Assembly: GCA_937893635.1 (NCBI GenBank)
Contig: CALBGF010000248.1
Location: forward strand, 1 to 36,514
Reading direction: 5' to 3'
DNA: 36,514 nt
From: an uncultured Mollicutes bacterium
Lineage (GTDB): Bacteria > Bacillota_I > Bacilli_A > RFN20 > CAG-826
Shown: piece by piece, positions 11,247-36,514 of the stretch
Layout: each line of letters starts with the position of its first letter
Position numbering within the stretch: the first letter of the stretch is position 1
Program-made: the position numbers and the translations under genes
Notes under the pieces: model-generated
Databases searched by the model: none
Seen by the model: only the letters and a program-made list of their open reading frames with translations
Told to the model about the DNA's origin: nothing

Positions 11247-14200
11247 ATGTTAAAGAAAGCATATAATTCACTTAGAGGCGGCTTAGCATTAAGCGCCTCT
11301 TTACTAGCATTTCTTTTAATAGCGCCTTCCACTATTAATCATTATCGTTCTGAAATAAATCAATTTTTAGGTACAACAAATACCAAAGTTGTGCCACAAG
11401 ATAAAGAACTAACTCAAGAACAAATTGATGATTTATATCCATATAAGTCAATTTATAAAAATACTACTGAGTTAGTTACTTCTTTAGCTAATTTAGGTGA
11501 AGAAATGGAAGAAGAAGGTGCCGTTTTATTAAAAAACGAAAATAATGCTTTACCTTTAGATTCTTCACATCAAAAAATAACATTACTTGGAACTGCGGCT
11601 TATAATCCTCATCAAGGAGGAGAAATGGGCTCAGGTTTAACAAAGAATTCCAATACTGATGCTGATACAGTTGCGCTTATTAATGGTTTTAAAAGAAGAG
11701 GCTTAGAATATAGTACATTAGTTCAACAAACTTATAAAAAAGCTGGTGCCTCAATTCAAAAAACAACATCACCTTCAGGAACAGAAAAATTTAGTAATAA
11801 AGAAGTATCAATCGCAAGTTTAAATTCTGCGAATGCGGATTGGCAAAAAGATTTTTCAGAATATAATACCGCGGTTATTGTTTTAGGAAGAGCGTCTTCC
11901 GAACAATCAACATATTTACCGGGAGCTGACTATGTTTCTGACAATGATGTTAATCTCCATCAAAGTGATGCATTAGGGCTTAATGATAATGAAAGAGATA
12001 TAATTAATTTAGCCGTTACAAAGAAAAATGAGGGAATATTTGATAAAGTAATTGTTTTAATTAATTCCGCAGTTGCTATGGAAATTGATGAAATAAATAA
12101 AAATCCTGGTGTTGATTCTATTATGCAAATTGGATTTCCAGGTGGTTATGGATTTTATGGTGTCGCAGATTTATTAATGGGTAAGGTTTCACCAAGTGGG
12201 CATTTACCCGATACTTATGCAGTTGATAATCATTTGTCGCCTGCTGCTCAAAATTATGGCGTTTATACATGGAGTAATCTTTTAAATATTGAAAGTAATC
12301 CCAATTATTCAGGAAAGTTAATTAATAATTATCTTGTTGAAGCAGAAGGTATTTATACAGGTTACTATTACTATGAAACTAGATATGAAGACCAAGTGAA
12401 AAATCGCTTTAATGCTTCATCATCTAAAGGATCAACAGTAATGAGTGGTTGGAATTATGAAAATGAAGTGACATATCCGTTTGGTTATGGTTTATCTTAT
12501 TCTTCTTTTAAGCAAGAATTAAAAGCGTTAAACGTGAATAAAGAAGAACGAAAAATCACTGCAGAAGTAGAAGTAACAAATGTAGGCAATTATGATGCTA
12601 AAGATGTCGTGCAACTTTATGTTCACACTCCTTATTTAGAAGGACAAGTAGAAAAATCAGCAATTAAATTAATTGATTATGGAAAAACCAAAGAATTAAA
12701 GAAAAATGGTGGAAAAGAAACAATTTATTTAGAAGCAGATTTACAAGATATTGCTTCTTATGATTCTAATACTGATGATGGAAGTTATATTCTTGATAAA
12801 GGCAACTATTATTTTTCAATTGGAAATGGTGCCCATGAAGCATTAAATAATGCGCTTATTAAAGAAGGAGTTAATGAATCTAATTTAAGTGGTTCACACT
12901 TTAGTAATTCTTGTTTATCTTGGTATAACAATGCTTTTGATAGCAAAACTCTAAAAGAATCCGATACTGGTGTAACTATTCAAAACCAATTAAGTGATAT
13001 GGATTTAAATTATTATAAACCAGGAACTGTTAATTATTTATCAAGATCTGATTGGGATAACACTTTCCCAAAAACATATAAAGGTATTGAAGCTGATGAA
13101 AATATGCTTAGAATACTAAACAATGATTTATATGAAATTGGTGCCCATAATGATGGATATGAAGATGTGACTTTTGGCGCTAATAACGGATTAACTATGA
13201 CAGCACTTCGAGGTGTAGAAAATATTAATGATCCAAGATGGGAACAATTATTAGATCAAATTACGTTACAAGAATGTTTAGATCGTATTGCCTTTGGTGG
13301 AACGAGTTGTAAGCATATTGAGTCAATTGACTCTCCAGAAGCAGTACAATACGATGGACCAAATGGCTATAATAATAATTCATTAGGAAATAAAGTAGAA
13401 AGTATTTCTTGGATGAAAGAAGTGGATCCGCATTATTTTACTAGTGAAGATAAAAATTATAATTATAAAGCTGGAGTTATGACAAATGAAACAGTAATTG
13501 CTGCGACATTTTCAAAAGAAATGGCTTTAAAATATGGACAAATTACTGGCAATTATTCAATTTGGGCGCATGTAACAATCTTATGGGGCGCAGGTTTAAA
13601 TTTACATCGCTTACCTTATAATGCACGTAACCATGAGTATTATAGTGAAGATCCAATTTTATCAGGCAATCAAGCCGCTAGTTTTATCAAGGGCGGAAAT
13701 GAATTTGGTGCTATTATATGTCCAAAGCACTATGCATTTAATGATACAGAAATTCAAAGGTTTGGCATTGCTCCATTAATGACTGAACAAAAAGCCCGCG
13801 AAACAGAACTAAGAGGATTCCAATTTGCTGTGGAAAAAGGTGAAACAAGAGGCATGATGACTTCCTTATCTCGATGTGGTATTACTGCCATTAACTCACA
13901 TGAAGGGATAATGCTTAATATTCTTCGTGATGAATGGGGATTTAAAGGATTGATGTCTACAGATGCTGCTACTAATAAACATTATTTCTCTGTTAAAGAA
14001 TTAGCACATTGTGGTGTTACTTTAACTACTATGACTAATGGCGATTTAACAGGTGGATGGGAATATTGGACAGTGGAAAATGTTTCTAAAGATAAAGGCT
14101 TAATGGCTGATGTTAAAAAATGTATGTTATATCAAAACTGGGCTATTGCAAATTCTAATGCGATGAATGGTTGGAGTGATGGTATGGTAAGAATTCATGT

Positions 14201-14327
14201 TAATGCTCCATATGATAATTTAGTATTAGGATTAGAAATTGGATTTGGTATAACCACAGTTGCTTTAGCAGTTTTACTTACATTAAGTGCCTTAGCTAAA
14301 TATAAGAATGAAGGTGAAATTGCATGA
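11247..14327 (+). CDS. Membrane-anchored GH3 glycosidase with permuted domains (copy 1)
   Basis: A 1026-residue GH3 enzyme, probably a beta-glucosidase-like exo-enzyme. An N-terminal membrane helix (about 10-30) is followed by the GH3 C-terminal sandwich domain first (EEGAVLLKNENNALPL at 89-104), then the fibronectin-like domain (YPFGYGLSYSSF, DVVQLYVHTP), and only then the TIM barrel (DGPNG, NLHRLPYNARNHEYYSEDP, CPKHYAFND). This is a circular permutation of the usual order. The nucleophile is D906 in GLMSTDAA, where most GH3 enzymes have SDW. A second membrane helix (about 993-1015) ends the protein, so the enzyme is outside the cell with both ends held in the membrane. The family contains enzymes with beta-glucosidase, xylosidase and other specificities. 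ATGA overlaps the next gene. Confidence 0.93.
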   Translation: MLKKAYNSLRGGLALSASLLAFLLIAPSTINHYRSEINQFLGTTNTKVVPQDKELTQEQIDDLYPYKSIYKNTTELVTSLANLGEEMEEEGAVLLKNENNALPLDSSHQKITLLGTAAYNPHQGGEMGSGLTKNSNTDADTVALINGFKRRGLEYSTLVQQTYKKAGASIQKTTSPSGTEKFSNKEVSIASLNSANADWQKDFSEYNTAVIVLGRASSEQSTYLPGADYVSDNDVNLHQSDALGLNDNERDIINLAVTKKNEGIFDKVIVLINSAVAMEIDEINKNPGVDSIMQIGFPGGYGFYGVADLLMGKVSPSGHLPDTYAVDNHLSPAAQNYGVYTWSNLLNIESNPNYSGKLINNYLVEAEGIYTGYYYYETRYEDQVKNRFNASSSKGSTVMSGWNYENEVTYPFGYGLSYSSFKQELKALNVNKEERKITAEVEVTNVGNYDAKDVVQLYVHTPYLEGQVEKSAIKLIDYGKTKELKKNGGKETIYLEADLQDIASYDSNTDDGSYILDKGNYYFSIGNGAHEALNNALIKEGVNESNLSGSHFSNSCLSWYNNAFDSKTLKESDTGVTIQNQLSDMDLNYYKPGTVNYLSRSDWDNTFPKTYKGIEADENMLRILNNDLYEIGAHNDGYEDVTFGANNGLTMTALRGVENINDPRWEQLLDQITLQECLDRIAFGGTSCKHIESIDSPEAVQYDGPNGYNNNSLGNKVESISWMKEVDPHYFTSEDKNYNYKAGVMTNETVIAATFSKEMALKYGQITGNYSIWAHVTILWGAGLNLHRLPYNARNHEYYSEDPILSGNQAASFIKGGNEFGAIICPKHYAFNDTEIQRFGIAPLMTEQKARETELRGFQFAVEKGETRGMMTSLSRCGITAINSHEGIMLNILRDEWGFKGLMSTDAATNKHYFSVKELAHCGVTLTTMTNGDLTGGWEYWTVENVSKDKGLMADVKKCMLYQNWAIANSNAMNGWSDGMVRIHVNAPYDNLVLGLEIGFGITTVALAVLLTLSALAKYKNEGEIA

Positions 14328-14961: not shown

Positions 14962-17900
14962 ATGAAAAATAAGAAAGTTTTGGTTGGAATTAGTTCCATA
15001 CTCGCAGTGTTGAGCTCTTTTGCATTGACCGCAAAAATGATTGCTACATCAAGTAGTGATTATAAAGGTATGGTTAATGACATATTAGGCGGTAGCGGAT
15101 CTTTTAGTGGTGGCCAAACAGATGCATATACTTTTAACTCAGAATTTAAGAATTCTAATGATGTTTATAAGAAACGTGCTGAAATTGCTGCTCAACTAAG
15201 TGAAGAAGGATGCGTTTTATTAAAAAATAAGAATAATGTTCTACCTTTAAAAGATGAATCATCACGCAATGTAACAGTGTTAGGCTCTGTTGCTTTTACT
15301 TATAATGAAAATGGTGGTTTACGTGATTCTCGTTTAGGATTTTATGGCGGAATTGTAGGTAGTAAAGTATATCAGCAAAACTTAAAAGTGGATGGTAAAA
15401 CACTTAGTTTACCAATTACTTTAGAAAAAGCATTTGAAGAAGAAAAAATTAACGTTAACCCAGATTGCATTAAAGTTTATTCAAATAAAAATTTTCCAAG
15501 TGAAATTGATGGTAGTGAAGCAAATGGTAGTTCATCGAAAGCCTTTAATAGTAATGAACCGCATGTAGAAGCAACGGATTTTCCTAACCGTGACAAATAT
15601 AGCGATGCTTGTTTTGTTGTTATAGGTCGTCATAGTGGCGAAGGACGAGAATATATCGCAGGACCAAATGGACTTGGACATAGTGATGGCGCTAAATCGG
15701 CATTAAGCCTTAATGATGAAGAAAAAAATCTAATTAAAGAAGCACACAAAATTTCAAATAAAGTTATCGTTCTTCTTAATAGCGCTGTAGCAATGGAAAT
15801 TAGCGACTTAAAAGATGGAAATGAAATAGGGGATTTAGTTGATTCAATATTATGGATTGGCTTACCAGGAGCATATGGAATGCGTGGAATTGCTCGAGTA
15901 ATTAATGGTAGTGTTGCTCCTTCTGGCCATTTATCTGATACATATGCTGTTGATGCTTCTAGTTCGCCAGCTGCTCAAAATTTTGGAGTATCTGCCCAAG
16001 ATAATTCAGGATATTTCCAATGGTCTAATCCAGGATATTACACTAATGCTGATAATTATCATTATGTCGCTTTAGCGGAAGATATTTATACGGGTTATTA
16101 TTATTATGAAACTCGTTACGCAGATTGCGTCGAAAATAAAGGCAATGCTAGAAAACCAGTAGGATTAGGTTATGGCGCTACAAATGTTAGTGAATGGAAT
16201 TATGAAAGTGAAATGGCTTATCCATTTGGCTATGGCTTATCTTATACTACTTTTAAACAAGAATTTGTGGCAAATAGTAATGGTGATTTAATTAAATACG
16301 ATAAAGATAATGACAAATTATATATGAATGTTAAAGTTACTAATACTGGTAATTATAAAGGAAAAGATGTTGTGCAACTTTATATGCAATCACCATATAC
16401 AAGTTATGACATTGAACACAAAGTGGAAAAATCCGCAATTCAATTAGTTACTTTTGATAAAACTAAAGAACTAGATATTGGAGAAAGTGAAGTAATTACC
16501 TTATCAGTCGACTTAAAATATATGGCTAGTTATGATAAAACCGCCACACATGATAATAAAGTTGGTGGATATATCTTAGAAGATGCAGATTATTATTTTG
16601 CCATTGGTAATGGTGCTCACGAAGCCTTAAATAATGTCTTATTAAATAAAGATGGTATTGAAGAAAGCAACTTGTTTATTGAAGAAAATAGTCAGGTTAG
16701 TAAAGAAAATGCTAAAACATGGAATCCTGCTAAAGAAAAAGATTTAACGGATAAAGAAAAAGGTAAATTTCAAAATGGAATAAATGCCACATTATTAAAT
16801 ACTAATGAAGAAGGATATGTTATTGAAAATCAATTAAGTGATGCTGATTATAATTATTTTAAAAAAGATACAATTACTTATTTGTCACGAAATGATTGGG
16901 CTGGAACATTTCCTAAAGCTTATGTCGGATTAGAAGTAACAGAAGCAATGACAAAATATTTAGGCACTAGCGCTACTAATTCAAGTAATGTTTACACAAT
17001 AAAATCTGGCGGAACATTGAAAGTGGAATTTGATGTGGATCACTCAATGGAAAATGATGAAAATGGTAATCCAAAAGAAAATAAGGTAATAGCGGAATAT
17101 AAAGGATTTGCTTATGATGATGAATCTTGGGATTATTTGTTAGAACAAATCACCTTTGATGAAGCATGGAAATTTTCTCCATATGGAGGAAGAAGTTGCA
17201 AAGCATTTAAATCTGTTAATGCTCCAGAAGTATGGCAAATTGATGGACCTAATGGAAACGTTACAAGAACAGTTGGTAAATATTCTAGTAAGAATGGACC
17301 AATGGCGATGAGTTCAAGTGATGATTATTATAACTATATGACTGCAGATATGCCTTGCGAACCAACAATTGCCGCAACATTTAATAAAGAATTATTAGAA
17401 GAAGAAGGCGAAAGTTTTGGTGAAGATAGTTTATGGAGTAACAACTGTATTGCATGGGCTCCAGGAATGAACTTACATCGTACTCCATTCAACTCAAGAA
17501 ACCATGAATATTATAGTGAAGATCCAATGCTTACTAATATTTGTGGTACAGCATTTGTTCGTGGTGGAGTTAAAGAAGGTGCAATTTTGTCGGCAAAACA
17601 CTTTGCTTTTAATACACAAGAATCATTTAGAGAAGGCTTAACTCAATTTATGGAAGAACAATCAGCGCGTGAATTAGAATTACGTGCTTTCCAAGGCATC
17701 ACTCAAGATGTTAAGTATATTAATTTTAAAGGTAATGAAGTTAACGCTCTTGGCTTGATGACATCGTTCTCACGCATTGGAGTATGTGGTGTTAATGCCC
17801 ATACAGGTTTAATGAAAAATATATTACGTGGAGAATGGGGCTTTAAAGGACTAAGTTCTACAGATATGGTTGTTGGTGGAAGATACTTTAATCCACAAGA

Positions 17901-18249
17901 TTCTATTATTAATAATGTTACATTTATGGCTACATCTAATGCCGAAAATTTATTAAGCAATTATTGGCCGGAATATAACAATAAAAATAAAGTAAAAAGT
18001 GATGCTAATTTAGTTAATGCGATGTATGAAAATATGCATTATTATATGTATGCTTTAGCTAATTCTAATGCTTTAAATGGTTATGATGCTAATACAGTTA
18101 TAGTTGATGATCAAGTTACTTGGTGGGAAAAGACATTAACAGGTATATCAATAGGAACAGGCGCAAGTGCTTTAATATTATTAGGCATTTATGAGTATGT
18201 ATTTAATTTAAAACCTATTATTGTTAATAAAAAGGAGGAGACAAAATAA
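14962..18249 (+). CDS. Membrane-anchored permuted GH3 glycosidase (copy 2, cassette A)
   Basis: A 1095-residue enzyme with the same permuted plan as copy 1: N-terminal helix (about 4-25), GH3 sandwich domain (SEEGCVLLKNKNNVLPLK, about 77-94), the loop with the likely acid/base glutamate (GRHSGEGREYIAG), fibronectin-like domain (YPFGYGLSYTTF, KDVVQLYMQSP), then the TIM barrel (DGPNGN, NLHRTPFNSRNHEYYSEDP, SAKHFAFN). The nucleophile is D968 in GLSSTDMVVGG. A C-terminal helix (about 1060-1080) and the basic tail NKKEETK face the cytoplasm. It is much closer to copy 3 at 24809 than to copy 1 (shared DEAWKFSPYGG, VNAPEVWQIDGPNGN). AAGGAG lies before the ATG. Its stop overlaps the next start (TAATG). 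Confidence 0.93.
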   Translation: MKNKKVLVGISSILAVLSSFALTAKMIATSSSDYKGMVNDILGGSGSFSGGQTDAYTFNSEFKNSNDVYKKRAEIAAQLSEEGCVLLKNKNNVLPLKDESSRNVTVLGSVAFTYNENGGLRDSRLGFYGGIVGSKVYQQNLKVDGKTLSLPITLEKAFEEEKINVNPDCIKVYSNKNFPSEIDGSEANGSSSKAFNSNEPHVEATDFPNRDKYSDACFVVIGRHSGEGREYIAGPNGLGHSDGAKSALSLNDEEKNLIKEAHKISNKVIVLLNSAVAMEISDLKDGNEIGDLVDSILWIGLPGAYGMRGIARVINGSVAPSGHLSDTYAVDASSSPAAQNFGVSAQDNSGYFQWSNPGYYTNADNYHYVALAEDIYTGYYYYETRYADCVENKGNARKPVGLGYGATNVSEWNYESEMAYPFGYGLSYTTFKQEFVANSNGDLIKYDKDNDKLYMNVKVTNTGNYKGKDVVQLYMQSPYTSYDIEHKVEKSAIQLVTFDKTKELDIGESEVITLSVDLKYMASYDKTATHDNKVGGYILEDADYYFAIGNGAHEALNNVLLNKDGIEESNLFIEENSQVSKENAKTWNPAKEKDLTDKEKGKFQNGINATLLNTNEEGYVIENQLSDADYNYFKKDTITYLSRNDWAGTFPKAYVGLEVTEAMTKYLGTSATNSSNVYTIKSGGTLKVEFDVDHSMENDENGNPKENKVIAEYKGFAYDDESWDYLLEQITFDEAWKFSPYGGRSCKAFKSVNAPEVWQIDGPNGNVTRTVGKYSSKNGPMAMSSSDDYYNYMTADMPCEPTIAATFNKELLEEEGESFGEDSLWSNNCIAWAPGMNLHRTPFNSRNHEYYSEDPMLTNICGTAFVRGGVKEGAILSAKHFAFNTQESFREGLTQFMEEQSARELELRAFQGITQDVKYINFKGNEVNALGLMTSFSRIGVCGVNAHTGLMKNILRGEWGFKGLSSTDMVVGGRYFNPQDSIINNVTFMATSNAENLLSNYWPEYNNKNKVKSDANLVNAMYENMHYYMYALANSNALNGYDANTVIVDDQVTWWEKTLTGISIGTGASALILLGIYEYVFNLKPIIVNKKEETK

Positions 18250-24779: not shown

Positions 24780-24808
24780 CAAGGTGTTTATTAATGGAGT
24801 GTGGATAT

Positions 24809-27800
24809 ATGAAAAACAAAAAAACTTTAAGTGGATTAGCGGTGTTATGTACTTTTTTCTGCTCTTTTTTCTTTTGCGGTGAGTCAGTTGCCGGAAGTGG
24901 CGATTATAAGAGCATGATTGATAGTATGCTTGGTGGTGCTGGTCAAAGTGGCACAAGTGAAGAAAAATATGCTTTTAAGTCTAAATATTCTTCATTAGAA
25001 GAAATGCTAACTCGACGTGTAGAAATTGCTGAACAATTAGGAGAAGAAGGATGCGTCTTATTAAAAAATGAAAAAATAAGCACAAATAATTCTTTACCAT
25101 TAAGAGATAAAGGAAATTCTACTACTTTAAATGTTACTATGCTTGGATCTCGTGCTTATACTTATAAAGCAGATGGTACAACTTTACGTGATACAAGCCT
25201 TACTTTTTATGGTGGAATTACAGGAAGTAAAATAGTACGCGAAACAGTTAAAACTAGTAATGGTACAATTAATGTTCCAGTTACAATGGAGCAAGCATTG
25301 CTAAATCAAAATATAAATATTAATCCATCATTAAAAACTTATTATTCAAACAAACCATTTCCTGCCATATTAACAGGTAGTGAAGGAAGCGATAATAAAG
25401 GTGGACCATATGCCGTTAATGAACCAAGTGTTAGTTTAAGTGATTGTGGCAATTACAACAATTATTCTGATGCCGCAATTGTGGTAATTGGAAGATGTAG
25501 TGGTGAAGGGCGTGACTATTTACCAGGTAGTGCTGGTGTAGTAAGTGGTGATTCACAAAAAAGCGCAATTGGACTTAGTAAAGAAGAATTGGCATTAATT
25601 GATGTTGCTAGTGAAATATCAGATAATGTTATTGTTTTAGTCAATAGTGCAATTGCAATGGAAATTGATGAACTTAAAAGTAATGATAAAGTAAAATCTA
25701 TTTTGTGGATTGGTTTACCAGGTGCTTATGGATTAAATGGTGTTGCAAGAGTAATAAGCGGTGAAACTTCACCATCTGGCCATTTAGCCGATACATTTGC
25801 AAGTAACGCATCAGATTCCCCGGCGGCACAAAATTTTGGTATAAAAAATCTTGATGGAAGTGCTAATTATACTTGGTCCAATTCTTCAAGAAAAGATAGT
25901 GATGATTCGCATTATGTTGTTTTAGCTGAAGATATATATACAGGCTATTATTATTATGAAACGAGATATGCAGATTGTGTGAATAATATGGGAAATGCCA
26001 CTTCTAGTAAAGGCACTAAAGATGGAGTGTCTAAATGGGATTATGATAATGAAGTTTCCTATTCATTTGGATATGGTAAATCTTATACAACATTTGAACA
26101 AACAATCTTAAATGATTCTTTCTATTTTGATGGAGAAAATAAAACTATTTCGCTAAAAGTAAATGTTAAAAATACTGGTAGTGTTGAAGGAAAAGATGTT
26201 GTTCAACTTTATGTGCAATTACCTTATACCGAGTATGATAAAACACATAAAGTAGAAAAATCCGCAATTCAATTAGTTACTTTTGATAAAACTAAATTGC
26301 TTGCACCAAATGAAGAACAAACATTAACTTTAACAGCGGATTTGAAATATTTTGCTACCTATGATAAGAGTTCTGTTCATGATGGTGTAACTGGTAGTTA
26401 TATTTTAGAAAAAGGCAATTATTATTTTGCTATTGGTAATGGAGCGCATGAAAGTCTAAACAATATTTTAGCTAAACAAGGAAAATCTAATGATGATTTA
26501 AGTATTGCTTCTGATAGTGTAGTGGATGCTAATAAAGTTTTACTATGGGATATAACAAAAAATACCGATTCATTCTTGTTCTTTGATTCAAATGGTGTTG
26601 ATAACATGTATTTGTCTAAATCAGAGACAGGAGAATTAATACAAAATCAATTAAGTGATGCTGATTATAATTACTTTAAAAAAGATACTGTGACTTATTT
26701 ATCAAGAAGTGATTGGGATGCAACATTCCCTAAATCATACACTGGTTTAGAAGAAATTGATACAATGAAAGACTATCTTGATAGTAATGTCTATAAATTT
26801 ACGACATCAGGCTCATTACCAAGTAATGTAAAGTTTGGTGTTGATCATTCAGAAGAATTTGATGAAAATAATGAACCATTAAAAAATGTTAATATCGCAG
26901 CATACAAAGGAAAATCTTATGAAGATAGCGAGTGGGATTATTTATTACAACAAATTACATTTGATGAAGCATGGAAATTCTCTCCTTATGGTGGAACGAA
27001 GTGTAATGGTTTTCAATCTGTTAATGCACCAGAAGTATGGCAAATTGATGGACCAAATGGAAATGTTAATAGAGGATATGATACTTTAGCACCAACAAGT
27101 GGTTATTTAGCAGTTTCTAAATCTGATCCAAACGCTAAGTATTTAAGTTGTGATATGCCTTGTGCGCCAGTTATTGCTTCAACATTTAATAAAGAATTAG
27201 TGGAAGAAGAAGGAGAAATATTTGGTGAAGATACATTATGGAGCCGAAATCCAATTATGTGGGCACCAGGTATGAATTTACATCGTTCACCATTTAATTC
27301 AAGAAACCATGAATATTATAGTGAGGATCCAATGATTACAAATATTATGGGAAAATCATTTGTTTATGGAGGACTTAAAAAAGGCGCTATTTTATCTGCA
27401 AAACACTTTGCATTTAATACACAAGAATCATATCGTGAAGGTCTATGTCAATTTATGGAAGAACAAAGTGCTCGTGAGATGGAACTTCGTGCTTATCAAG
27501 GATTAAGTGAAGACATCAAATATATTAATGAACAAAATACTGAAATTAGTAGTTTAGGACTAATGAGTTCTTTCTCTCGTGTAGGAGTATGCGGTGTTAA
27601 TGCTCATACTGGCTTAATGAAAAATATTCTAAGAAAAGAATGGGGCTTTAAAGGACTTATTTCTACAGACATGGTTGTTGGTGGATATTTCTTTAACCCA
27701 CAAGATAGTGTAATTAATAACGTTACATTTATGGCTACTTCTAATGCTGAAAATTTACTAAATAGTTATTGGACGCAATATAACAATAAAAACTTAGTAA

Positions 27801-28063
27801 AATCTGATCCAAACATGATGCAAGCATTATATGAAAATATGCATTACTACATGTATTCCATAGCTAATAGTAATGCTTTAAATGGATATGATGCTAAAGA
27901 TAGTGTTAGCATTGATAACAAGTCTTGGTGGCAATATGCTTTAATTGGCGGTGGTGCGGTATTTGGTGTTGGAGCATTATCTTTATTTGTAGCTTCAATA
28001 TATCTAGAATTAAAAAAGAAACCACAAGAAGTAGTTACGAATGGAAGTGATAATAATGACTAA
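24809..28063 (+). CDS. Membrane-anchored permuted GH3 glycosidase (copy 3, cassette B)
   Basis: A 1084-residue enzyme, close relative of copy 2. I prefer the ATG at 24809 (MKNKKTLSG, matching MKNKKVLVG of copy 2, GGAG 9 bases upstream) over the ATG at 24794. The plan is the same: N-terminal helix, sandwich domain (GEEGCVLLKNEKIS), acid/base loop GRCSGEGRDYLPG, fibronectin-like domain (YSFGYGKSYTTF), TIM barrel (WQIDGPNGN, NLHRSPFNSRNHEYYSEDP, SAKHFAFNTQES), nucleophile D954 in GLISTDMVVGG, and a C-terminal helix (about 1045-1068) with a short charged tail. The end-to-end similarity with copy 2, and conserved gene order after it, show cassette duplication. The next gene begins inside its last codons. 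Confidence 0.93.
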   Translation: MKNKKTLSGLAVLCTFFCSFFFCGESVAGSGDYKSMIDSMLGGAGQSGTSEEKYAFKSKYSSLEEMLTRRVEIAEQLGEEGCVLLKNEKISTNNSLPLRDKGNSTTLNVTMLGSRAYTYKADGTTLRDTSLTFYGGITGSKIVRETVKTSNGTINVPVTMEQALLNQNININPSLKTYYSNKPFPAILTGSEGSDNKGGPYAVNEPSVSLSDCGNYNNYSDAAIVVIGRCSGEGRDYLPGSAGVVSGDSQKSAIGLSKEELALIDVASEISDNVIVLVNSAIAMEIDELKSNDKVKSILWIGLPGAYGLNGVARVISGETSPSGHLADTFASNASDSPAAQNFGIKNLDGSANYTWSNSSRKDSDDSHYVVLAEDIYTGYYYYETRYADCVNNMGNATSSKGTKDGVSKWDYDNEVSYSFGYGKSYTTFEQTILNDSFYFDGENKTISLKVNVKNTGSVEGKDVVQLYVQLPYTEYDKTHKVEKSAIQLVTFDKTKLLAPNEEQTLTLTADLKYFATYDKSSVHDGVTGSYILEKGNYYFAIGNGAHESLNNILAKQGKSNDDLSIASDSVVDANKVLLWDITKNTDSFLFFDSNGVDNMYLSKSETGELIQNQLSDADYNYFKKDTVTYLSRSDWDATFPKSYTGLEEIDTMKDYLDSNVYKFTTSGSLPSNVKFGVDHSEEFDENNEPLKNVNIAAYKGKSYEDSEWDYLLQQITFDEAWKFSPYGGTKCNGFQSVNAPEVWQIDGPNGNVNRGYDTLAPTSGYLAVSKSDPNAKYLSCDMPCAPVIASTFNKELVEEEGEIFGEDTLWSRNPIMWAPGMNLHRSPFNSRNHEYYSEDPMITNIMGKSFVYGGLKKGAILSAKHFAFNTQESYREGLCQFMEEQSAREMELRAYQGLSEDIKYINEQNTEISSLGLMSSFSRVGVCGVNAHTGLMKNILRKEWGFKGLISTDMVVGGYFFNPQDSVINNVTFMATSNAENLLNSYWTQYNNKNLVKSDPNMMQALYENMHYYMYSIANSNALNGYDAKDSVSIDNKSWWQYALIGGGAVFGVGALSLFVASIYLELKKKPQEVVTNGSDNND

Positions 28064-30641: not shown

Positions 30642-30653
30642 GTGGTGAAATGT

Positions 30654-33185
30654 ATGAGAAAAAATATTAATTTACTATCAACATTAGTTTTAATGCTAAC
30701 TTTATCGGTTGGTCTTAGTTCTTGTGATAACAATCATAGTGGTAATAGCGGCATCAGTGATGATTCCTCTCCGATTTCCCCAAGTTTACCTATAAGTCCT
30801 TCAACATCAACTGAAGATCCAATTAAACCAAGTCCAATTCGTGAAGATAAAAAATGGTGTGATTTATTATTTATAAAATTAAATGCTAATGACAAGATTA
30901 AAGTTAATGTTTCACTTAGTGACACATTATCTGTAGTTTTTAGTTTTGATGATAATCGTGAAAATATTAAGCCTACTTTAGAAGTGAAAATAGATGATAA
31001 AATAAGCAAATCTAATGCATTTTTAAAAGATAATTCCACATATTTTATGGCATTTAATGATTTAAAATTAGAAGATTTAGATAAAACATTTACCGCTAAA
31101 GCATACTTAGGTGATGAATTAGTTGGAGAAATTAATATGAGTGTTTTAACTTATATAAATGCAATTTTAAATGATATCGATAATTTTGCTTTAGATATTT
31201 ATAGTAAAATGGCTTTAGAAACATTATTGGTTAGTTCTATAAATTATGCGGGTATAAAACAAAAAAGTATGGGAATTAGCGAAGATTTGCTTGTTTCAAA
31301 AAACTTAACTAGTGAACAACGTGCTTTACTATATAATAGTTCAAGCGATAATTTCTATAATAAAGGCTTTAATTTTGTTGAACGTGATAATTTAACAACA
31401 GAAGGTCAAAGTGCTGAAGACTTTTCTTGGATTAATGGAGAAATAGATTTTGTTAATAATGCACTAGTTTATAAATTTAGTGTTAAAAGTGGACAATATA
31501 ATTCTTTAAAAGCTCGTGTATCTTTTGAAGATGATAGCTATGATGTTCAAGTAAATAAAATTGATACTACTGATGATAAAGATAACTATTATGTATCTAT
31601 TAGTAATATTACTCCATTACAATATCATGAGGATGTTAAAGTAGAAATTTATGGCGATTCTACACTAATTAGTCAAAAAGCCACATATTCATTTTTAAGA
31701 GGTTTAGGACACGCTGATAACTTTGCTAGTGCAATAGAAAAAGAACAATCAAATGCTCTCTATTCGTTAGCTAAAGCATCTATTTGGTGGAATTATAAAA
31801 ATGATATAGTTTATACTAAATTACCAGCAGTAAATGATAATGGAATTATTACATTTGATTTATTTAAATATTCTTTTGATGATGCAAGATTCTTACTTAA
31901 TAAACAGTTCTCCACCTTTGGATCTTATGTTTATATGGGTAATGCTGTTTGTGATAGCAATAATAACGAAGTAGAAGGAGATAACTTTTCTATTAAATAT
32001 GCAAATAATGAATATGTTATTACTTTAAATGGTGCTGAAATTGATGGCATTTTATTAAGCGGTGCCGCAAATGTAAAAATTATTGTTAATGCTGATAGCA
32101 TTATTTCTTCAACATTATATCGTAATTGGAATGACAAAAATAATAATCTTTCAGCTTCGATTATTAATGATAGCGGAAATGTTACTATTACAAGTAATAA
32201 TGATGCAAAATTAACATTAAATGGCAATATTTTAATTAATGGTGATTTAACTATTGATGGAAGTGTTATTACAAATGTTAATTTGAAAAAAGACATCAAT
32301 GCTTCTAAGGCTATTGTTGGCGTTGATGTTAAAGGTAGCGTGAATATAAAGAATCAAGCTGCTTTATATGTTAATAATGTCAATTTAGTATCTAATAGTG
32401 TGGGCTTAAATGCTGAAAAAGATGTTACCATTGATAACGGAATCTTACTAGTTAATAATTTTGATACGGCACTATACTTAACAAATATAAACGAAGAAGA
32501 AACTAAACAAACATTTACTTCTTTAGGTAATTCAATAATTACTCTTAAAGGAGCATCTTATGGCTTTAATTCTCATGACTATAATCGTGAAATTAATATT
32601 TTAGGTGGTAATGTAGAAATGGAAGGAAATACCGGTATTAATTTTGCTAATGTAAGTGTTGGAGATGCCGAGCTTAAAGTAGTGGCTAATAATGGTTACA
32701 CAATTCAAGCTAGTAAGCCAGTAACATTTAAAACAACAAGTGGTGATTATGAAAAAGGAAAAATAACTTTAATTAATAATACAACTTATAATCAATGGTA
32801 TGACGTTAATTATGTTTTACGTGTTATAGATATGCACATTAATGGCGGAACATTAAAACTAGAAGGCACAACTAAAAATGGTATTATTTATACGGAAAAA
32901 GATGCTAAATTAGTTTTTGAAAATTGTGATGTATTTATTACTTCTACGAATGATGGTAATGGTATAAGAGCCCAAGAGGGAAACGAAACCATAACTATTG
33001 AAAATACTGCTCAAATAAAAATTACCGGATCAGATATTCCTATTGGTTGTTGGAATGGATCTAGCCCAGTTAAACTCTATATTAGAGGCAATTTTGTTGT
33101 AGATTCATATCGAGGCACAATTGGAGAATGGGATGATAAAACAATTATTGTTGAAGGGGCAATAAACTATATTAATCATCGTTAA
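30654..33185 (+). CDS. Large beta-helix surface lipoprotein (cassette B)
   Basis: An 843-residue lipoprotein; signal ends GLSSC (C24), then a Pro/Ser-rich linker. I chose the ATG at 30654, 8 bases after AGGTGG; an earlier GTG at 30642 overlaps that site. The N-terminal half has two beta domains that end in ALETLLVSSINYAGIKQKS and ALYSLAKASIWW, equivalent to the LNYGTEAQKY and YLYGKAAAAVA motifs of the 883-residue protein. From about 430 it is a parallel beta-helix (NVTITSNNDAKLTLNGNI, LTIDGSVI, VDVKGSVNIKNQAALYVNNV). It differs from its cassette A counterpart in being a lipoprotein and in lacking the TC-G-GH segment. Probable polysaccharide-binding or adhesive surface protein. Confidence 0.83.
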   Translation: MRKNINLLSTLVLMLTLSVGLSSCDNNHSGNSGISDDSSPISPSLPISPSTSTEDPIKPSPIREDKKWCDLLFIKLNANDKIKVNVSLSDTLSVVFSFDDNRENIKPTLEVKIDDKISKSNAFLKDNSTYFMAFNDLKLEDLDKTFTAKAYLGDELVGEINMSVLTYINAILNDIDNFALDIYSKMALETLLVSSINYAGIKQKSMGISEDLLVSKNLTSEQRALLYNSSSDNFYNKGFNFVERDNLTTEGQSAEDFSWINGEIDFVNNALVYKFSVKSGQYNSLKARVSFEDDSYDVQVNKIDTTDDKDNYYVSISNITPLQYHEDVKVEIYGDSTLISQKATYSFLRGLGHADNFASAIEKEQSNALYSLAKASIWWNYKNDIVYTKLPAVNDNGIITFDLFKYSFDDARFLLNKQFSTFGSYVYMGNAVCDSNNNEVEGDNFSIKYANNEYVITLNGAEIDGILLSGAANVKIIVNADSIISSTLYRNWNDKNNNLSASIINDSGNVTITSNNDAKLTLNGNILINGDLTIDGSVITNVNLKKDINASKAIVGVDVKGSVNIKNQAALYVNNVNLVSNSVGLNAEKDVTIDNGILLVNNFDTALYLTNINEEETKQTFTSLGNSIITLKGASYGFNSHDYNREINILGGNVEMEGNTGINFANVSVGDAELKVVANNGYTIQASKPVTFKTTSGDYEKGKITLINNTTYNQWYDVNYVLRVIDMHINGGTLKLEGTTKNGIIYTEKDAKLVFENCDVFITSTNDGNGIRAQEGNETITIENTAQIKITGSDIPIGCWNGSSPVKLYIRGNFVVDSYRGTIGEWDDKTIIVEGAINYINHR

Positions 33186-33217: not shown

Positions 33218-33976
33218 TTAGTACACTAATTCAATTCCTAATTCTTTGATTTTATCAACGTATTCTTGTGAAATATTCTTATCAGTAATTATTGTGTTTA
33301 TATCATTAATATTACAAATCTTAGAAATGAAAGATTTGCCAAATTTAGATGAATCAACGAGTAATATTCTTTTACTAGAGTTCTTAATCATTGTTCGCTT
33401 GATTTCTGCTTGCTCAATTGATGCTTCAGTGATTCCTTGATTAAAATCAAATCCAGCACAAGAAATGATGCATATATTAACAAATAAATTTTGTAGTTCA
33501 TTAATTGTTGTATGACCGAATACAGAATTTGATTGATTTTGAATAAAACCACCAGGTATGAATGCCCGAAATGTAGTATTGTTTTTGATTGCCATAGCGG
33601 TTGAAAGTCCATTAGTAACAAGTGTTAATGATTTGAATTGATTTAATAAAGGAACTAAATGCAATACAGTTGAAGAAGAATCAAGAAAAATAGATTGATT
33701 GGATTGAATAAAAAAAACTGCTTTTTCACATATTTCTCGTTTCTCTTTTTTATTTAATTCCTCTCTTATAAAAAGCGAAGATTCTTCATTTGATGAACTA
33801 AAAAGTACTGCACCGCCATGCACTCTTTTTAATAACCCTTTTTTAGACATAGCTTCTAAATCTCTTCTTGCAGTTGCGGGAGATATATAAAGTTCTTTTA
33901 CTAACTTATCGACAGTTACTTTTTTCTTCTCTTTTAGTATTTCGAGAATCTTGTCATATCTTTCATTATCGTACAT
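33218..33976 (-). CDS. DeoR/GlpR-family transcriptional regulator
   Basis: A 252-residue repressor of the sugar-responsive DeoR family. The N-terminal winged helix-turn-helix (about 6-57) carries the classic KVTVDKLVKELYISPATARRDLEAM and KRVHGGAV signature. The C-terminal sensor domain (about 75-230) has FLDSSSTVLHLVPLL, LVTNGLSTAMAI, and the DeoRC closing ILLVDSSKFGK. Family members usually bind phosphorylated sugars and control nearby catabolic genes through tandem direct repeats. GAGG lies 7 bases before the ATG. TGATT-type repeats occur upstream of its own gene (34038-34057) and before three surface units, so it may control itself and the GH3 cassettes. No sugar kinase or PTS gene is next to it. 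Confidence 0.93.
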   Translation of the reverse strand: MYDNERYDKILEILKEKKKVTVDKLVKELYISPATARRDLEAMSKKGLLKRVHGGAVLFSSSNEESSLFIREELNKKEKREICEKAVFFIQSNQSIFLDSSSTVLHLVPLLNQFKSLTLVTNGLSTAMAIKNNTTFRAFIPGGFIQNQSNSVFGHTTINELQNLFVNICIISCAGFDFNQGITEASIEQAEIKRTMIKNSSKRILLVDSSKFGKSFISKICNINDINTIITDKNISQEYVDKIKELGIELVY

Positions 33977-33993
33977 TTTTTTACCTCACGATT

Positions 33994-34002
33994 ATTATAC
34001 CA
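33994..34002 (-). promoter_or_regulatory. Extended -10 promoter of the DeoR gene
   Basis: On the minus strand TGGTATAAT is a perfect TGnTATAAT extended -10, with no clear -35. Confidence 0.6.
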
Positions 34003-34037
34003 TTATTGAATAATAAAAAACATAAATTGTCAATGAT

Positions 34038-34057
34038 TATTCAATCACTTTTACTCA
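34038..34057 (-). repeat. Tandem repeats upstream of the DeoR gene (possible self-operator)
   Basis: On the minus strand TGAGTAAAAG and TGATTGAATA follow at 10-base period, similar to TGATTGAAAC, TGATGAAAAA at 24688. On the plus strand TGATTGCTTT (34063), identical to the repeat at 24668, and TGAATGCTTA (34079) lie close by. Confidence 0.45.
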
Positions 34058-34125
34058 TTTTTTGATTGCTTTATTTTATGAATGCTTAAAAATAATCATA
34101 CATTTGTTTTTATAACGCTCATTTA

Positions 34126-34154
34126 TTGTTACAAATGATTATTAGTGATAATAT
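34126..34154 (+). promoter_or_regulatory. Promoter of the TPR protein gene
   Basis: TTGTTA (34126-34131) and TAATAT (34149-34154), spacing 17, with TGA directly before the -10 (extended -10). Confidence 0.7.
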
Positions 34155-34178
34155 TTTTTATAAGCTAGGAAGATGCTT

Positions 34179-35165
34179 GTGGATAATTATAAAGATTTAA
34201 TACTACCTAATGATTTAACGACTTATATTGATGAACACCTTTATGAGTTTAATAAAGATGAAACAATACATTTGGCTAATAAATGCTATGAATTAGGCGT
34301 TAAAACTAAGGATGCATCAATAAAAGAAGCACATTTAAAAAACGCTTTAAGAGTATTATATCATCTTCAAGAGATGTACGAGATTATGCCACCAGATTTA
34401 TTTTTCAAGATAAATGAAGAATTAATATCATTATATATTAATAAAAATGATGAAAAAGAAGTAAAAAATACATATAAAATTGTTCGTGATTATTATAGAT
34501 TTTTTGATGATGATTATAAAAAAGTATGTGCATATGGATTTTCTTGTGTTGCTTTTAAATATATGGAGTACTTATATTCTATTAAAGATTATAAAGGTTG
34601 CTTATTTCCGTTTGATGAAATTTTTGATGGATTAATAAAAAACACTAAAGATGAATCAATGAATTTGCTTGCTAATGCATTTGCGCTCGTATCACATATT
34701 GGGTTTATCTATAATTTTAAAGAAAAAGCATTAAGTTATATGAAAAACGCTCTTTCTTTAGTGGAAGTATTAAGCGATAGATTTAAAGATAAATATTCGC
34801 AAATTGCTTTATTTACTTTTAATTCAGGTAATATTTGCTTACAAATGGATGATTATGATAATGCAATTAAATATTTCATTCAAGCAAAAGATGTATGTAA
34901 AAATAATAAATTTGATGATTCTAATGATATGTTTGCTATGAGTTCTAATTATATGGCACAAGCTTTAGTGCTAAAAAAAGAGTACGAAGAAGCTGTTAAT
35001 GAATATAAAAATGCAATAGAATACTTAAACAAAAATGAACTAGATGAAAACAAACGAAATAAAAATATTAAAGATTTTTTAAAACGAATTGGGATTATAT
35101 ATGAAAAGTACTTAAATAATGAAGAACAAAGTAAAATTTATTATGAAAAAGCTAAAAAAATTTGA
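34179..35165 (+). CDS. TPR-repeat protein
   Basis: A cytoplasmic helical-repeat protein of 328 residues without signal peptide or membrane segment. Paired helices such as YMKNALSLVEVLSDRF, ALFTFNSGNICLQMDDYDNA, IKYFIQAKDVCK and EYEEAVNEYKNAIEYL fit tetratricopeptide repeats, which mediate protein contacts. AGGAAG at 34167-34172 abuts an ATG at 34173 but is 6 bases before GTG at 34179, so GTG is the likelier start. It has its own extended -10 promoter and a short untranslated leader. It is upstream of, and may act with, the TerB-like/protease gene, which has a separate promoter. No enzymatic motif is seen. Confidence 0.8.
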   Translation: MDNYKDLILPNDLTTYIDEHLYEFNKDETIHLANKCYELGVKTKDASIKEAHLKNALRVLYHLQEMYEIMPPDLFFKINEELISLYINKNDEKEVKNTYKIVRDYYRFFDDDYKKVCAYGFSCVAFKYMEYLYSIKDYKGCLFPFDEIFDGLIKNTKDESMNLLANAFALVSHIGFIYNFKEKALSYMKNALSLVEVLSDRFKDKYSQIALFTFNSGNICLQMDDYDNAIKYFIQAKDVCKNNKFDDSNDMFAMSSNYMAQALVLKKEYEEAVNEYKNAIEYLNKNELDENKRNKNIKDFLKRIGIIYEKYLNNEEQSKIYYEKAKKI

Positions 35166-35204
35166 TATTAGCAATCGAATATGTGAACATTGTATAAAAA
35201 AGTT

Positions 35205-35233
35205 TTGATTATATGCTAATAAATTATTATAAT
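35205..35233 (+). promoter_or_regulatory. Promoter of the TerB-like/protease gene
   Basis: TTGATT (35205-35210) and a perfect TATAAT (35228-35233) with 17-base spacing. Confidence 0.7.
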
Positions 35234-35256
35234 GAAAAAGTAAGAGGAAAAATAAT

Positions 35257-35907
35257 ATGGAAAAAAATGTATTTGAAGAAGCTGCAAAAGCTTATGTTGA
35301 AGTGATGAATACTGCAACTGAAATGTTTAAATTTCATCAACAATCTATGGCAAACGAAGGAAAACAATTTGACATTCGTGTTGGTTTAAATCAACTTGAT
35401 GTTATTATCCAATATTCTATGCTTCAAGTGGCTCTTAATGACGATGAACTAGATGAAAGTGAAGTAGGTTTTATTAAATCAATGTCACAATTTTGTGATT
35501 TCTGTGATTATTTAAACCAAGTAGGATATCGAGGCGTTACTTGGGATGTAATTTTTAACACTGATGAAAATTCTTTAAAAGAAGTATTAGAAGAATCTAA
35601 AAAATCAGTTATTTCTTTATCACAAGATTTTGTTAGAATTTTCTCATTAATTGATGCAATGACTGAACATAATTATTTAGATGATTTATATAAGAACTTC
35701 TGCGCAATCATCGCTGGCATTATGCAAGCAGATGGTAAAGCTTATAAAGAAGAAATAGCAAATGGATGTTTATTAATTGATTTAATTAATGTTGTTAATG
35801 CTCAAAAGCAAGATTTTGAAAATGTAATTGCTGCAAAAAACTCACAACCAAAAGAACAACCAAATGCTAAAAAATCATTAAAAGATTATTATGTAAAAAA
35901 AAACTAA
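35257..35907 (+). CDS. TerB-like helical domain protein, zero-frame part of a possible frameshift gene
   Basis: A 216-residue, mostly helical protein without export signal. YSMLQVALNDDELDESEVGF (about 50-69) and IMQADGKAYKEEI (about 155-167) resemble the paired acidic helices of TerB-like domains, which in TerB bind metal and sit in membrane-linked stress complexes; the match is loose. A Q/P/K-rich linker (about 188-205) leads to the end. AGAGGAAA lies 6 bases before the ATG. The last codons are AAA AAA AAC TAA, which form the slippery heptamer A AAA AAC right before the stop. The -1 frame continues without a stop into a trypsin-like protease, so the 216-residue product may be only the short form of a 418-residue protein. 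Confidence 0.82.
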   Translation: MEKNVFEEAAKAYVEVMNTATEMFKFHQQSMANEGKQFDIRVGLNQLDVIIQYSMLQVALNDDELDESEVGFIKSMSQFCDFCDYLNQVGYRGVTWDVIFNTDENSLKEVLEESKKSVISLSQDFVRIFSLIDAMTEHNYLDDLYKNFCAIIAGIMQADGKAYKEEIANGCLLIDLINVVNAQKQDFENVIAAKNSQPKEQPNAKKSLKDYYVKKN

Positions 35908-35938
35908 TTAATCTTGATTCGGATAAAAAGGTTAATTA
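35898..35938 (+). other. Candidate -1 frameshift (or transcriptional slippage) site
   Basis: The TerB-like frame reads AAA AAC TAA with an extra A ahead, so A AAA AAC (35898-35904) is in the phase required for -1 slipping and directly precedes the stop. It is part of a run of nine A (35895-35903), which could also cause polymerase slippage. Behind it TAATTAATC (35905-35913) pairs with GGTTAATTA (35930-35938), 9 bp with one wobble, loop of 16. The helix starts with no spacer after the heptamer, closer than the usual 5-9 bases. Confidence 0.5.
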
Positions 35939-36512
35939 CAAAAACAAAGAAGAAGCTTTGGCTTATATAGAAACTGATACTGGTTCAGGATCCGGATTTA
36001 TGATTACAAATACCGGTCTATGTTTTACTTGTAATCATGTGATTAAAGGTTCTACTGAAATCTATGTTGGCTTAATTAATAATGATGGTAAAAAAACTGT
36101 TTATAAAGCAAATGCATTAATTCAAAATGAAGATGAAGATTTTGCTATTATTGAATTAGAAGATTGTATTGATAATTATTTCTATGAATTAGAATTAGAC
36201 TATAAGACACTTAAAACTGGCAATGATGTAGCTATATTTGGTTATCCATTTGGATCAGCGTTAAATGATGAAATAATGGAATTAGAGCCATCACTTACTA
36301 AAGGATATATTTCTTCTAAAAATAAAATCAATGGTCACATTTGTTATTACTTAGATATTAATTCCGCACCTGGCAATAGCGGTGGTCCAGTATTCTCTTT
36401 AGATACTAATAAAGTAATCGGCTATTTATGTGGATCATATGGTAATGATCGCTCAGATATCATCTTTATTAGGACATTAGAATATTTCTTAAAAAATTAT
36501 TTAAAAGATTAA
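35904..36512 (+). CDS. Trypsin-like serine protease domain in the -1 frame
   Basis: A chymotrypsin-fold protease domain of the S1/HtrA-like group. The triad is visible: H in CFTCNHVI (codon 36036), D in NEDEDFAII (codon 36138) and S in SAPGNSGGPV (codon 36378). GSGSGFMITNTG is the first strand. No good start exists in this frame: the nearest ATG (36000) would cut into that strand, and a TTG at 35958 has only a poor AAGAAG before it. Upstream the frame stays open and protein-like (DSDKKVNYKNKEEALAYIET) back to the slippery heptamer, so I annotate from 35904 as the -1 extension of the TerB-like gene. No PDZ domain or signal peptide, so cytoplasmic. Alternatives: independent TTG-started gene, natural frameshift mutation, or a sequencing error in the A run. 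Confidence 0.82.
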   Translation, partial: LINLDSDKKVNYKNKEEALAYIETDTGSGSGFMITNTGLCFTCNHVIKGSTEIYVGLINNDGKKTVYKANALIQNEDEDFAIIELEDCIDNYFYELELDYKTLKTGNDVAIFGYPFGSALNDEIMELEPSLTKGYISSKNKINGHICYYLDINSAPGNSGGPVFSLDTNKVIGYLCGSYGNDRSDIIFIRTLEYFLKNYLKD

Positions 36513-36514
36513 AA

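Follow-up and report, generated by a model that had tools for sequence, protein, structure and literature searches.

How can a gene that ends in a regular stop codon also supply an enzyme that is encoded behind this stop in another frame? This question is raised by the end of a contig from an uncultured Mollicutes bacterium (GTDB RFN20; CAG-826; assembly GCA_937893635.1, contig CALBGF010000248.1), of which a stretch of 36,514 nucleotides (nt), here called the window, was analysed. An open reading frame (ORF) for a 216-residue protein ends there with the codons GAT TAT TAT GTA AAA AAA AAC TAA, and a trypsin-like protease follows in the −1 frame. An earlier note on this DNA had proposed that both are joined by slipping at an in-phase A AAA AAC, giving a 216-residue and a 418-residue product from one gene. 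The conserved junction and homologues that carry both parts in one frame support this proposal, and the A run is very probably a genuine and conserved recoding site. The features on which this rests are listed here, together with their state in two related split loci, L161 and L162.

35257 to 35907, plus strand: 0-frame ORF, 216 residues, all-helical and distantly TerB-like, ending in the linker SLKDYYVKKN and then TAA.
35895 to 35903, plus strand: nine-A run, the longest run of A or T in the window.
35898 to 35904, plus strand: in-phase slippery heptamer A AAA AAC, the same in L161 and A AAA AAA in L162.
35905 to 35907, plus strand: 0-frame stop TAA, immediately 3' of the heptamer; TAATTAAT (35905-35912) is common to all three split loci read.
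35904 to 36512, plus strand: −1 frame with the linker LINLDSDKKVNYKNKEEALAYIET and then the Trypsin_2/HtrA-type protease, identified by PF13365 (66.5 bits), its motifs and the constraint on codon positions 1 and 2.

The coordinates of the heptamer, its phase and the open protease frame were confirmed. The C after the nine A residues is position 35904, where the −1 frame starts with CTA ATT AAT CTT and stays open for 202 codons until the stop at 36510-36512; its closest upstream stop lies 36 nt before 35904. The encoded C part matches Trypsin_2 (PF13365) with an E-value of 5.5e-18, its score standing against a cut-off of 27.6 bits. His (CNHV), Asp (EDFAI) and Ser (GNSGGP) motifs are present in the −1 frame, with the catalytic roles assigned by eye, and by eye the three motifs were also found in L161 and L162.

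The DNA of the relatives was then compared around the junction. Matches to the N-terminal domain (N-domain) were found in seven of 224 genomes of the family: the two split loci, two one-frame fusions (L163 and L164), L165 and two distant ones. L161 (L001) belongs to the uncultured Erysipelotrichaceae RUG131; its N-domain is 54% identical to that of the window and its junction reads TATTATGTAAAAAAAAACTAATTAAT. The two loci share 29 identical nt across the slip point, the longest such stretch of the 1.27-kb region, the next having 17 nt. L162 comes from another Erysipelotrichaceae genome among the 224 and is 42% identical, with ten A residues followed by TAATTAAT and the junction TTCTACGTAAAAAAAAAATAATTAAT; no such long identical stretch joins it to the window at this place. 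The A run was present in all three split loci read (9 in the window, 9 in L161 and 10 in L162), in each it ends in phase as A AAA AAN, and in both relatives the protease continues in the −1 frame. In the fusion L164, the linker codons are GTA AAG AAA AGC, which interrupt the A run. L165 has an N-domain ORF of 194 amino acids (aa), and its 3.5-kb locus shows no protease motif; this is a stand-alone N-domain like seven database proteins that lack the linker.

No additional strong split locus emerged from scans of the order (279 genomes), a class sample (395) and a phylum sample (392); the matches were weak, including L178 (a frame of 383 aa) and L182 (368 aa). Among the best 80 of 374 relatives in a contig scan, L001 alone matched the whole query, and the remaining matches covered the protease part, a few somewhat more, at 25-39% identity and were not used. 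No match to the N-domain was found in the phage, plasmid and viral contig collections searched, nor was the junction pattern found in the viral contigs. With the fused alignment, the best 80 of 158 viral loci matched in the protease part at 26-35% and were likewise left aside.

The earlier note had asked for an alignment of relatives that would show the domains either fused or split, and both states were found. When the 418-residue fused sequence was used as query, 39 proteins matched. At least 88% of the query was covered in one frame by 29 of them (27-50% identity; 28 were aligned), six covered 44-51%, essentially the protease, at 52-60% identity, and four were weak. At the place where the slip would give LKDYYVKKN-LINLDSDKKVNY in the window, the closest one-frame homologues have LKDYYVKKN-TINLVDSPYKVNY, so that their YVKKN-TINL corresponds to YVKKN-LINL of the predicted −1 product. 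Five proteins with the same protease type at 52-60% identity (P0023, P0026, P0027, P0028 and P0030) have the protease at the N-terminus and a different C-terminal part; in P0027, this part bears a weak resemblance to sigma-70 region 4 (17.9 bits, cut-off 24.1).

The 216-residue query found eight proteins of 209-216 aa. These are representatives of clusters with 264 member sequences, and the representatives alone were examined. A profile built from the eight gave 28 matches, 21 with the linker LK[DN][YF]Y and seven without it. Among the 21 split proteins with the linker (P0054, a shorter near-copy of P0052, is included in this count), 17 stop exactly at the KKN of YVKKN, at identities down to 34%. 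This is the same residue at which the one-frame fusions carry on through the same linker. The other four ends occur once each: KKR (P0057), KKK (P0059), KKNK (P0060) and NKNNQC (P0045).

The protease could also be a gene of its own, translated either from a late TTG or GTG or by coupled re-initiation once the TAA has been reached. The earlier note had seen no convincing start for it, which has to be qualified for the window. In L162, no ATG, GTG or TTG precedes the protease core; the first one is codon 32 of the C part, inside the core, and a stop 36 nt ahead of the C part closes the −1 frame. In the window, the earliest such codon is the TTG at 35958, 18 codons into the frame and preceded by the purine-rich AAAGAAGAAG; in L161, a GTG occurs 21 codons into the C part. 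A start at either would include the protease core. However, the three loci and the one-frame fusions all retain the linker residues VNY..KE.A upstream of the TTG and GTG, and separate genes would leave the 17 of 21 stops at the same residue unexplained. Since L162 cannot use a bare-protease start and the preceding linker is conserved, this start was rated low, and we consider two separate genes very improbable.

Equally improbable is an assembly error, a decayed gene or a DNA phase switch in which A9 and A10 turn the protease off and on by mutation. Long A runs are indeed prone to insertions and deletions, and split and fused proteins are intermingled on the N-domain trees (see below). Yet the split recurs in three loci and in 21 protein clusters, and the −1 frame is constrained. 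For the 182 codons 18-199 of the C part, third positions hold 94 of 164, 95 of 160 and 103 of 184 differences in the three pairs of loci; because the differences concentrate there, the −1 frame is under coding constraint. A plain fused gene with ten A residues, which the earlier note had named as a finding that would refute it, did not appear: none of the 39 matches to the fused query is a full-length fused protein of more than 50% identity. Since the fused query would have matched such a copy, there is no A10 copy of the window gene among the proteins searched.

Recoding at the A run, by whichever machine, has a high probability. For the ribosome, most translation would proceed through the AAC and stop at the TAA, releasing the 216-residue helical protein. 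Some ribosomes would slip back by one base at A AAA AAC, continue in the −1 frame and make a product of about 418 residues with the HtrA-type trypsin-like protease after the linker LKDYYVKKN-LINLDS. The slip rate would then determine how much protease is made in relation to the short form. As a working guess, the two forms might have a target or partner in common, by which the short form would tune proteolysis. We give a ribosomal −1 slip with two products from one gene about an even chance.

Slipping by the RNA polymerase is the principal competitor, and we hold it to be possible at somewhat below an even chance. Here, the polymerase would add an A at A9 or A10 in some transcripts, and the same two products would result, with VKKK-LINL at the fusion. 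The junction peptide KKKLINLDSDK that had been proposed for the ribosomal slip in fact belongs to this inserted-A product; a tandem slip of the ribosome would give VKKN-LINLDSDK. The A runs of 9, 9 and 10 in the three loci have the length at which polymerases slip (about 7-9 A or more). GTA precedes the run in all three loci, compared with 28% GTA among the Val codons of the window; it lengthens the run and would be unneeded by the ribosome.

Two known systems were compared. The transposase of IS1447 from Firmicutes slips at A9, seven A being sufficient, and an added base gives the long product as it would here; it belongs to a mobile element with a stem-loop before the run, whereas the window gene encodes an HtrA-type protease (PMC6211511). 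In tssM1 of Citrobacter rodentium, a stop directly behind the poly-A likewise gives a short and a C-terminally extended form, and both lengths are needed there. In contrast to the window gene, for which slipping is a prediction, tssM1 encodes an unrelated protein, has A11 and its polymerase slippage was demonstrated (PMC4256274).

The ribosome is favoured because the run ends in the phase A AAA AAN in three of three loci, because AAC is used despite a bias for AAT and because AAAGGA is present in two of the three loci. The phase is not required for polymerase slippage. As to the codons, 85% of the Asn codons in the window are AAT, yet both loci with Asn at the slip codon (the window and L161) have AAC. 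Background on the heptamer also fits: A_AAA_AAC belongs to a set of seven A-rich consensus heptamers described for conserved frame transitions (PMC3711429), and it was proven in an insertion-sequence case that has no established stimulator (PMC4066793). The dnaX gene and insertion-sequence transposases (PMC5009743, PMC4066793) resemble the window gene by an in-phase A-rich heptamer, short and long products and a possible upstream Shine-Dalgarno-like stimulator; the window gene differs by having no conserved downstream structure and by a long form that would gain a whole enzyme. We lean to the ribosome over the RNA polymerase, with nothing decisive between them.

How unusual the site is within the window was also counted. 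The A9 run heads the list of A and T runs, followed by three runs of 8. Among the 9526 codon positions of 19 ORFs in the window, where 85% of the Lys codons are AAA, 14 carry an in-phase AAAAAA[A/C/G] heptamer. Three of the 14 fall into the 0-frame ORF 35257-35907; two are an overlapping pair at its end, and the third is another in-phase A AAA AAC at 35835-35841, 63 nt upstream. This upstream heptamer cannot yield the fused protein, since a −1 slip there meets the stop 36 nt before 35904. In an AT-rich genome, a lone in-phase heptamer ahead of a lone stop would be weak evidence, and the relatives decide.

Two candidate stimulators lie next to the heptamer.

35880 to 35888, plus strand: AAAAGATTA, at the place of the Shine-Dalgarno-like AAAGGA, found by sequence comparison and with a presumed role only.
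35905 to 35938, plus strand: predicted (RNAfold) 11-bp A/U-rich hairpin, not conserved and probably outside the mechanism.

AAAGGA is found 12 nt upstream of the heptamer in L161 and L162, and the window has the weaker AAAAGA. The helix described earlier with 9 bp has 11 bp, pairing 35905-35915 with 35928-35938, and it begins at the stop codon with zero spacer. Its z-score is −3.4 when 40 nt are folded and −1.5 for 80 nt; of 402 50-nt windows from the same gene, 23% fold equally stably. In the same 40 nt, L161 forms no more than a short weak hairpin (z −1.2) and L162 none (z +0.7). The hairpin is thus absent from both relatives, and it should probably not be counted as a part of the mechanism.

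Several observations weigh against a ribosomal slip. The DNA evidence comes from only three split loci; the hairpin, present in one of them, was rejected as a conserved part. The two loci with AAC are not independent because they are close kin on the tree, and in E. coli A AAA AAC shifts much less readily than A AAA AAG (PMC5009743). In the 18 codons from the heptamer to the window TTG, 13, 11 and 12 residues are kept in the three pairs of loci, and third-position change is not clearly enriched in this short piece. P0057 differs from the L162 protein in one of 212 residues, the last (R for K), and its terminal R in KKR would weaken A-site re-pairing, a point for the polymerase; judged from the protein sequence alone, the same end suggests that a shorter run is tolerated, a point against the polymerase. 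Finally, P0045, a split relative of 64% identity, ends with YINKNNQC in place of YVKKN; it appears to fit no simple −1 scheme and is unexplained.

The products themselves were examined by profiles and structure models. The C part resembles the HtrA/DegP-type proteases by its sequence and by predicted fold, the best PDB matches of the model of P0001, a one-frame homologue, being the proteases MucD, DegP, Deg5 and HtrA1, a type to which DegS also belongs. It differs from these proteases by the helical N-domain, by the lack of a PDZ family hit in the window C part and in P0001, and by 59.3 bits with the degP_htrA_DO profile compared with a cut-off of 416.2, which leaves it below family level. The P0001 model shows a helical domain, a disordered linker (191-219) and the protease; its predicted template modelling score (pTM) is 0.49, so that the model does not define how the domains are placed to each other.

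For the N part, the TerB-like label given earlier proved weak, with 13.7 bits for TerB (PF05099) at a cut-off of 24.4 and no confident Pfam family. TerB was matched by 14 of 33 relatives at E≤0.01, and P0053 and P0059 pass the cut-off. The link to TerB may thus be described as weak, suggested by profile hits in relatives and a sub-threshold resemblance in the window. The short form P0040, by eye one residue different from the window, gave an all-helical model with a predicted local distance difference test score (pLDDT) of 88.8 and a pTM of 0.84. No PDB entry matched this model at E≤0.001, the best E-value being 0.44, and the fold gave an assignment to TerB no clear support.

To follow the split and fused states, two N-domain trees were used, one with the linker (57 rows) and one free of it (49 rows, without the long rows P0020, P0025, P0031-P0035 and P0067); P0023 and P0026-P0030 are in neither. 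Two changes between the states are needed on the 57-row tree and three on the linker-free tree. On the latter, the fusions P0001-P0006 and P0008 are nested in a clade together with 13 split proteins (support 98/94), but the test did not reject a single split clade (p-AU 0.148). The tree results indicate that the split state is old, with one origin, or one origin and later re-fusion.

In the neighbourhood, a tetratricopeptide repeat protein is encoded at 34173-35165 and a DeoR-type regulator at 33218-33976 on the minus strand. No tRNA was found in the window and no Rfam match within 34000-36514. Three large proteins (11247-14327, 14962-18249 and 24794-28063) have the C-terminal domain of glycoside hydrolase family 3 before the N-terminal domain, a permuted-looking order. 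An 847-aa protein (30642-33185) has, by eye, a lipoprotein-like signal (LSSC) at its start and no Pfam match at E≤1.

To our knowledge, there are few well-conserved recoded genes apart from those of phages and insertion sequences, dnaX and prfB. A literature search over titles and abstract beginnings found no such recoded gene, and the main text of PMC3711429 does not mention trypsin, protease, peptidase or tellurite. The joined protein is missed by automatic gene calling, which takes it for two genes, either separate or broken. The window gene is very likely a further case of an already known class, the two-product recoded bacterial gene, and a well-conserved one; its stop keeps its place while the surrounding protein diverges to about one third identity. 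We tentatively suggest that the A run is a regulated recoding switch, deeply conserved among helical-domain/HtrA-like proteases of small-genome Erysipelotrichaceae-like bacteria, which seem to form a family not yet described. An abundant short form and a rarer fused form would both be needed, and their ratio, set by the slip rate, would be regulated. The lineages of P0001-P0006 and P0008 may have locked this switch on by restoring one frame.
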